NCBI GenBank assembly: GCA_024689505.1
Contig: JAILDJ010000292.1
Location: 1-33,052, forward strand
Direction of reading: 5' to 3'
Length of the DNA: 33,052 bases
Origin: Clostridiales bacterium
GTDB lineage: Bacteria > Bacillota > Clostridia > Lachnospirales > Bianqueaceae
Position 1 is the first letter of the stretch. The number at the start of each line of letters is the position of its first letter. The notes under the pieces were generated by a model. The model made no database searches. It was given only the letters and a program-made list of their open reading frames with translations, and was not told the origin of the DNA. Below, piece after piece: positions 16,017 to 28,092 of the stretch. Position numbers and translations under genes: made by a program.

Positions 16017-16029
16017 ACCTTACAAGTTA

Positions 16030-16116
16030 AGAAGACTTCCTACGCCAGTATTATCCGTATCAGGTATAAGGGTTTGGATCCGAAGACCCATCTCAGCCAC
16101 GCAGCACCCCTGTCGA
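16030..16116 (-). promoter_or_regulatory. TPP (THI-box) riboswitch
   Basis: On the minus strand the conserved blocks occur in order: GGGGTGC, GGCTGAGAT, ACCCTTATACCTGAT and GGATAATACTGGCGTAGGAA. These are the pyrimidine- and pyrophosphate-sensing helices of the TPP aptamer. It sits between the promoter at 16147-16174 and a terminator hairpin ahead of thiT. Confidence 0.97.
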
Positions 16117-16146
16117 TTCTTATGATATTCAGTTTTCCAAGTCAGT

Positions 16147-16225: not shown

Positions 16226-16597
16226 GTGCTCAAGCCGGTCAGACGGTCGCGCAAGGCAAAAACCGCATTTGCGGGGACCCGAAAGGGCGCCTGTGAGGAA
16301 AGTCCGAGCTCCATAGGGCAGGATGCTGGATAACGTCCAGTGGAGGAGACTCCCAGACCAGTGCAACAGAAATAAACCGCCACGTTCGCGTGGTAAGGGT
16401 GGAAAGGCGGGGTAAGAGCCCACCGCCTTCCTGGTGACAGGAAGGGCTCTGTAAACTCCATCCGGAGCAAGACCGAACAGGAAGTGATACGGCTGCCCGT
16501 CGTGCTTCCGGGTAGGTCGCGTGAGACCTGCGGCAACGCAGGCCCAAGATAGATGACCGTCCACGACAGAACTCGGCTTACAGACCGGGATGAGCAA
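16226..16597 (+). ncRNA. rnpB: RNase P RNA, apparently type A
   Basis: This is the catalytic RNA that trims tRNA 5' leaders. The conserved P4 strand GAGGAAAGTCCGAGCTCC (16297-16314) and the matching 3' block ACAGAACTCGGCTTACAGACC are present, along with GGTAAGAGCCCACC and the GTGCAACAGAA segment. P1 closes the molecule: GCTCA plus CCGGTC (16228-16240) pairs with GACCGG plus TGAGC (16583-16595). The length of about 370 bases and the peripheral helices point to type A rather than the Bacillus type B. Open frames on the opposite strand are not genes. Confidence 0.96.
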
Positions 16598-27472: not shown

Positions 27473-27501
27473 TTGCAAAGTGAAAAACAGTATGCTATAC
27501 T
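27473..27501 (+). promoter_or_regulatory. Sigma-A promoter of a putative small RNA
   Basis: TTGCAA (27473-27478) and TATACT (27496-27501) are exactly 17 bases apart with a TGC extended -10. No coding frame follows. Confidence 0.65.
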
Positions 27502-27505
27502 GACA

Positions 27506-27590
27506 CTGTAATCTCTATAGTGCTTATGCGCAGACATGCTGCGCATACATGGACTACTTTTACGGATCTGAAAAGATCCGTATTTTTTTA
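27506..27590 (+). ncRNA. Putative small RNA of about 85 bases
   Basis: A promoter is followed by a hairpin (TATGCGCA 27525-27532 with TGCGCATA 27540-27547, closed below by TAGT/ACTA) and then by a terminator hairpin with a run of seven or more T. There is no ribosome site or start codon with a useful frame. The unit is also bracketed by a perfect 10-bp inverted repeat, GACACTGTAA (27502-27511) and TTACAGTGTC (27594-27603). I do not recognise it as a known RNA family. Confidence 0.5.
27561..27590 (+). terminator. Terminator of the putative small RNA (and possibly the ftsH operon)
   Basis: TACGGATC (27561-27568) and GATCCGTA (27575-27582) form an 8-bp stem with a TGAAAA loop, followed by a T-run to about 27589. 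Confidence 0.85.
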
Positions 27591-27598
27591 CTCTTACA

Positions 27599-27661
27599 GT
27601 GTCAAAAACTCTCTCCACCGCGTTGTGCTTGCACATAAGCGGTGAAGAGAGTTTGTGACAC
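27599..27661. repeat. Long near-perfect hairpin
   Basis: Successive arms pair in order: GTGTCA with TGACAC, AAACTCTCT with AGAGAGTTT, CACCGC with GCGGTG and TGTGC with GCACA. Together this makes a stem of about 26 bp with only small mismatches. It opens the structured region that continues to about 27861. Confidence 0.7.
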
Positions 27662-27669
27662 GCCCCCAT

Positions 27670-27707
27670 ACGAGGACTGAAGCGACGCAGGAGCGAAAGT
27701 CCGAGTA
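27670..27707 (+). repeat. Structured 38-bp repeat, copy 1
   Basis: The identical 38-base unit begins ACGAGGACTGAAGCGACGCA and ends AAAGTCCGAGTA. Inside, GGACT pairs with AGTCC and CGC with GCG around an AGGA loop; tandem GA mismatches sit below the GGACT stem. This copy is closed by CCCCCATAC (27663-27671) with GTATGGGGG (27705-27713). The flanking stem differs from copy 2, which implies the fold is conserved while the closing arms vary. Confidence 0.75.
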
Positions 27708-27714
27708 TGGGGGA

Positions 27715-27746
27715 GGCATGCAGGAGTGCGAAGCACGAAGCATGCC
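27715..27746. repeat. Hairpin between the two 38-bp repeats
   Basis: GGCATGC (27715-27721) pairs with GCATGCC (27740-27746), and inside it GTGC pairs with GCAC around GAA. The ascending side carries GCAGGAG, also found in both 38-bp repeats. A further hairpin, CACAA-CCC-GAA-GGG-TTGTG, follows at 27764-27784. Confidence 0.6.
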
Positions 27747-27819
27747 GTAAGAAAGATCAGTATCACAAACCCGAAGGGCTTGTGGACAAAGATCAATGAC
27801 CCTTTGGAACCCGCCTCTA

Positions 27820-27857
27820 ACGAGGACTGAAGCGACGCAGGAGCGAAAGTCCGAGTA
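27820..27857 (+). repeat. Structured 38-bp repeat, copy 2
   Basis: It is identical to copy 1 over 38 bases and begins exactly 150 bases after it. The closing stem is different: CCTCTA (27814-27819) with TAGAGG (27856-27861). Confidence 0.75.
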
Positions 27858-27944
27858 GAGGTGAGGTTACGCAAAGGCGTCCACCCTGGAGGCAGACTCT
27901 CTATAAAGATTTCATCAACTAAAACAAATTCCCCAAATTCACTA

Positions 27945-28015: not shown

Positions 28016-28087
28016 TGGGCAATCGCCAAGCGGTAAGGCACTGGACTCTGACTCCAGCATTCGTAGGTTCGAATCCTTCTTGCCCAG
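28016..28087 (+). tRNA. tRNA-Gln, anticodon CUG
   Basis: The acceptor TGGGCAA (28016-28022) pairs perfectly with TTGCCCA (28080-28086). The D-arm (CGCCAAGCGGTAAGGC) and the T-loop (TTCGAAT) are canonical. The anticodon stem CTGGA/TCCAG holds the loop CTCTGAC with anticodon CTG, reading CAG (Gln). The T-stem is GTAGG/CCTTC, with one T-T mismatch where CCTAC is usual. The discriminator is G and the 3' CCA is not encoded (CGA follows). Confidence 0.95.
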
Positions 28088-28092
28088 CGACT

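Follow-up and report, generated by a model that had tools for sequence, protein, structure and literature searches.

The hairpin-rich segment at 27591–27885 of the window (the whole stretch of DNA that was analysed, 33,052 nucleotides from a Clostridiales bacterium of the family Bianqueaceae) very probably consists of an old copy of the Rfam family RF01699 (Clostridiales-1) and a truncated tandem copy of it, RF01699 being a short, non-autonomous mobile element (MITE). RF01699 was read as a MITE because its copies are dispersed, related species carry empty sites, and the element has terminal repeats and target duplications.

A cmscan search matched 27591–27753 on the + strand to the complete RF01699 model (positions 1–166 of 166) at 111.4 bits (E = 9e-25; cf. 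a gathering score of 48 bits), and the consensus stems P1–P4 were all present in the window copy, with model alignment and fold in agreement. The second core lay outside the match and the second unit fell below the gathering score. An earlier note on this DNA had recognised no named RNA family here, which was wrong; the covariance-model search that it proposed was what returned RF01699. Rfam types the family as Gene; sRNA, and Weinberg et al. 2010 entered it, with no function assigned, as a probable RNA from Clostridiales and the human gut (PMC2864571); at the level of its main text, that paper holds nothing further on Clostridiales-1. Besides this listing, the open-access literature on RF01699 comprised papers merely naming the accession or family, and no MITE paper for these hosts was found in it. 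The window feature equals the published family (PMC2864571) in its full-length model match and its stems, but what was a candidate RNA gene in 2010 appears here as a dispersed mobile repeat, ~30 nt longer in well-preserved subfamilies and followed in the window by a truncated second unit. The features of the locus are as follows.

27561–27588 (+): intrinsic terminator of the upstream transcript (27561–27582 plus T run; terminator prediction, order kept in G003 and G002)
27591–27753 (+): first unit, a complete RF01699 element P1-P2-P3-P4 (cmscan)
27592–27597 (+): 5' arm of P1, TCTTAC (fold)
about 27593–27605 (+): degenerate left terminal repeat CTTACAGTGTCAAAA, cf. GATACCAGGGTCAAAA in well-preserved copies (by-eye comparison)
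27599–27661 (+): P2, a long, near-perfect hairpin with a CTTG loop, hypervariable among copies (fold, copy comparison)
27663–27713 (+): P3 hairpin with the first 38-nt core and GA/GA and GAA/GAA internal loops (fold, copy comparison)
27670–27707 (+): first 38-nt core (sequence comparison)
27715–27746 (+): P4 hairpin with a GGAG/CGA internal loop (fold, copy comparison)
27747–27752 (+): 3' arm of P1, GTAAGA (fold)
27760–27787 (+): small CACAA/TTGTG hairpin separating the two units (fold)
27798–27881 (+): second unit, a tandem copy cut down to P3 and the 3' strand of P2 (P4 lost), forming one extended hairpin (fold; tandem partial copies elsewhere)
27820–27857 (+): second 38-nt core, same as the first (sequence comparison)

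As the earlier note had described, the region is highly structured: RNAfold gave −146.3 kcal/mol for 27591–27885 compared to −84.7 ± 4.9 for shuffled sequences (z = −12.5), 0 of 200 shuffles folded as well, and the hairpins occupied the positions given in that note. It was equally right that the two 38-nt cores are identical, start exactly 150 bp apart and are closed by arms unlike each other; identity between the cores ends exactly at both of their edges. The note took this arrangement for a selected RNA fold, and the conserved fold, the stem changes on both sides of pairs and the membership of a described family speak for that part of the claim, but the identity of the cores stems from a recent local copying event. 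The cores agreed at 38/38 positions within the window but the two orthologous units in G003 matched the window core at only 27/37 and 31/37, which indicates recent local copying and not strong conservation of the 38-mer. As judged from these alignments, the 38-nt core sequence is unconserved even at the orthologous locus of a sister species. The G003 orthologue of the window element contained two P3-P4 units plus the start of a third, and tandem partial copies (the 3' strand of P2 with P3-P4) were found at several loci of the genus; the second unit of the window belongs to this type, shortened by the loss of P4.

RF01699 was abundant and dispersed. The window genome had 18 matches at unrelated loci, several of them in tandem, and matches numbered 111 in G381, 93 in G349 and 70 in G119. 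The family was carried by 15 of 58 relatives (up to 18 matches each) and by 110 of 392 genomes of the order, and a P4 pattern scan of named genomes gave matches mostly in records titled Lachnospiraceae, Butyrivibrio, Blautia and similar uncultured Clostridia. Across the window's genus there were many dispersed copies, and the species differed in carriage at the same sites. The earlier note had set the finding of a dispersed, simple mobile repeat against its own reading, and dispersal of this kind was what the family showed. As the element behaves like short jumping DNA and can reach about 110 copies in one genome, the label of small-RNA gene is probably misleading for RF01699. Similar DNA was also seen in eight unannotated faecal phage records and one Butyrivibrio fibrisolvens plasmid, and at one locus (L046, G039:C1 about 1032209–1032955) five matches of about 150 bp formed a head-to-tail array.

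In well-preserved subfamilies the element passed the end of the Rfam model by ~30 nt, reaching a second terminal inverted repeat, so that it measured 183–209 bp and held no gene. The terminal repeats, each about 19 bp, read GATACCAGGGTCAAAAGGT on the left and ACCTTTTGACCCCNACATC on the right, and near-identical copies in G381, G119 and G374 followed the order GATRCCAGGGTCAAAAGGT ... P2, P3, P4 ... GGTATCA ... ACCTTTTGACCCCNACATC. Terminal inverted repeats occurred in the G381, G119 and G374 subfamilies and also in G013, a member of the window's own family; the right repeat was found at 93 sites in G381, compared to 0 for a reversed control pattern. Target duplications were AT-rich and 7 or 8 bp long, with the consensus ATNNNAT. 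The 7-mers flanking complete elements were identical (7/7) in 28 of 56 cases, where shuffled pairing would give 1.2, a contrast that is unchanged by a few loci having been fetched and counted twice; several of the remaining elements were compatible with 8-bp duplications if the reading was off by one base. Among 52 complete elements surveyed, none lay inside a long ORF. Derivatives of 71 bp and 36 bp (L302, L308, L306, L319) were reduced to scarcely more than the terminal repeats, P2 being kept in some and lost in others. A transposase gene between terminal repeats was not seen at the sites examined in G381, G119 and G349. A Y1/IS200-type transposase as mobilising partner found no support in the carriers G045 and G057, where PF01797 was not detected, and an apparent autonomous element in G381, with repeats 1.2 kb apart flanking a short-chain dehydrogenase gene (by ORF reading), was rejected because each repeat belonged to a separate small element.

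The window copy had no right terminal repeat and no readable target duplication, from which we judge it to be old, and no right repeat was seen beside the copies in the window's genus. The mobility of this subfamily is therefore supported by dispersal and empty sites, of which presence or absence among related species gave examples at four loci, the window locus included. At the latter, G002 kept the order upstream gene, promoter, terminator and tRNA-Gln without the element, and an Rfam scan of the orthologous G002 locus returned no RF01699. The rpmI-rplT site carried the element in G002 and lacked it in G000, G001 and G003, while the rpmH-rnpA site carried it in G003, where a hairpin with its T run immediately precedes it, and lacked it in G000 and G002 (these four gene names are our own reading of the sequence). 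At the C179 locus the element was present in G000 and G001 and missing in G003. Species of the genus shared other copies at orthologous sites.

In the window, the element starts right behind the T run of the 27561–27588 terminator, with a sigma-70-like promoter (27473–27501) further upstream, and is followed by another promoter and tRNA-Gln (28016–28088). The promoter-terminator order was common to G003, which has the element, and G002, which does not. The interval 27473–27590 holds the promoter and a transcript unit of about 85 nt with two hairpins and the intrinsic terminator; it gave no Rfam match, its block GTAATCTCTWTAGTG is kept at the same place in G003 and G002, and it is a candidate small RNA. 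In G003 (L111 1665–5979), two large, secreted-looking proteins of 782 and 624 aa, which the window does not have, lie between the element and tRNA-Gln. Elsewhere in the window, a TPP riboswitch (16020–16121, −) and a class A RNase P RNA (16231–16596, +) are arranged divergently.

The positions of the copies bear on whether retained elements have acquired a function. Copies often started at a stop codon or right behind a terminator T run, T-box terminators included, or behind a −10-like box, and some lay within the conserved operons rpmI-rplT and rpmH-rnpA. Their orientation relative to the upstream gene was biased in the relatives' set (53 same vs 21), a bias not found in the recent-copy set (19 vs 31; Fisher P = 0.0004), although this comparison mixes lineages and lists a few recent loci twice. 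These observations would suit a mobile element that has been co-opted as a cis-acting RNA, in which case copies retained in 3' or intercistronic UTRs would serve as insulators, processing sites or stabilisers of mRNA 3' ends, and a role at transcript ends is the main rival explanation of the copy positions. We consider such domestication conceivable but rather unlikely, as an AT-rich target and tolerance for intergenic sites may produce the same positions. Conservation of the P3 and P4 internal loops in distant hosts, like the orientation bias of the relatives, speaks against the MITE reading, and both allow a role in transcripts. Four copies (L040, L007, L062, L076) separated a leader from the gene that it regulates, each directly following a T-box-like terminator; the T-box was confirmed by Rfam in G000:C59 and G003:C228 and identified by sequence only in the other two.

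The stems were compared by strand and between orthologues. In 104 non-redundant copies G.U was about as rare on one strand as on the other (2.7% of all pairs on the + strand and 2.5% for the reverse complement, a ratio of 1.10, 0.85–1.43), and P2 alone also gave a ratio of 1.10, whereas the controls were clearly strand-biased (tRNAs 2.29, 1.73–3.10; T-boxes 1.60, 1.38–1.86). A fourfold G.U excess in P3 was not relied on because this ratio of about 4 rests mostly on helix-end pairs, with 13 vs 6 internal pairs left, five of which came from related copies; a home-made symmetric-fold strand test was dropped because it could not tell the element from the T-box control. At one position of P2, A.C in many copies corresponded to G.U in others (AAAGTC/GACCTT vs AAAGGTC/GACTTTT; e.g. 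L041, L044, L063), and wobble seems to be preferred there. The earlier note had proposed to look for compensatory changes, and these were present among orthologous copies: paired positions altered on both sides were still paired in 104 cases and broken in 44, and one-sided changes left 34 paired and 106 broken, with alignment error inflating the broken classes. This pattern is compatible with stems rewritten as blocks, and P2 arms did change blockwise at the same locus. We tentatively suggest, at less than even confidence, that the covariation of RF01699 may arise in DNA, with whole hairpin arms rewritten together (by palindrome correction or template switching) during or after transposition and without RNA selection; the equal rarity of G.U on either strand, the blockwise change of P2 and the identical cores with different self-complementary arms all point this way, and what speaks against a pure DNA reading is that the internal purine loops in P3 and P4 are conserved.

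The same data bear on the Rfam typing, under which RF01699 would be a small RNA gene that stands alone and acts in trans. The conserved P1-P4 fold, the excess of two-sided changes that keep pairing and the conserved purine loops would suit such a gene, but tens to more than 100 near-identical copies occur at unrelated loci with target duplications alongside, many sister species have no RF01699, the window copy has an intrinsic terminator directly upstream and no predicted promoter of its own, and G.U pairs are scarce and free of the strand bias of tRNAs and T-boxes; we therefore regard it as improbable. Far less probable still is a protein sponge of the CsrB kind or a mimic of the Shine-Dalgarno sequence, which the earlier note had put forward on the three GCAGGAG sequences of the segment. 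These are indeed found at 27687, 27720 and 27837, but six further + strand sites occur in the window, those of the first unit sit by the P3 tip and in the P4 internal loop, which vary among copies, and the repeated, conserved GGA motifs that CsrB-type sponges carry in hairpin loops were not seen; since no more than 4 of 87 family copies contain GCAGGAG, both readings are left without support. A chance cluster of hairpins is refuted by the fold z-score, the RF01699 match and the orthologous element in G003, and we give it almost no credence.

In well-preserved subfamilies, RF01699 inserts between genes at AT-rich sites and creates 7- or 8-bp duplications there. On the MITE reading, it would be mobilised by a transposase acting in trans, and subsequent local copying would yield tandem P3-P4 units, including those of the window. 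Here, the insertion would have taken place behind the terminator of the small transcript and upstream of tRNA-Gln, and the copy would have no gene-specific job and be transcribed by read-through at most. The conserved hairpins P3 and P4 are probably of use to the element itself, whether in the form of RNA or of single-stranded DNA.

RF01699 resembles MITEs in being short and gene-less, with terminal inverted repeats, target duplications and many copies, and differs from them in its conserved P3-P4 hairpin module catalogued as RNA and in that a transposase partner was not found. Among described repeats, bcr1-bcr3 of the Bacillus cereus group come closest; they are high-copy intergenic MITE-like repeats of 100–400 bp that frequently lie within UTRs or intercistronic regions, with bcr1 reaching 130 copies per genome (PMC3446304, PMC6542083). 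The two are alike in kind, as high-copy, intergenic and MITE-like repeats, but by description they differ in host group, ends and target, with a TTTAT motif in bcr repeats vs the 7- to 8-bp ATNNNAT duplications of RF01699.

Overall, an Rfam family of the small-RNA gene type is better read as a transposable element, a bacterial parallel of the MITEs that Rfam described as posing as plant microRNA families (PMC4383904). This raises the question of how much covariation in families of repeated hairpins stems from DNA processes as opposed to RNA function. Annotation would be corrected by more than 100 spurious small-RNA genes in some genomes, and RF01699 would serve to mark recent mobility in gut bacteria of the Lachnospiraceae type.
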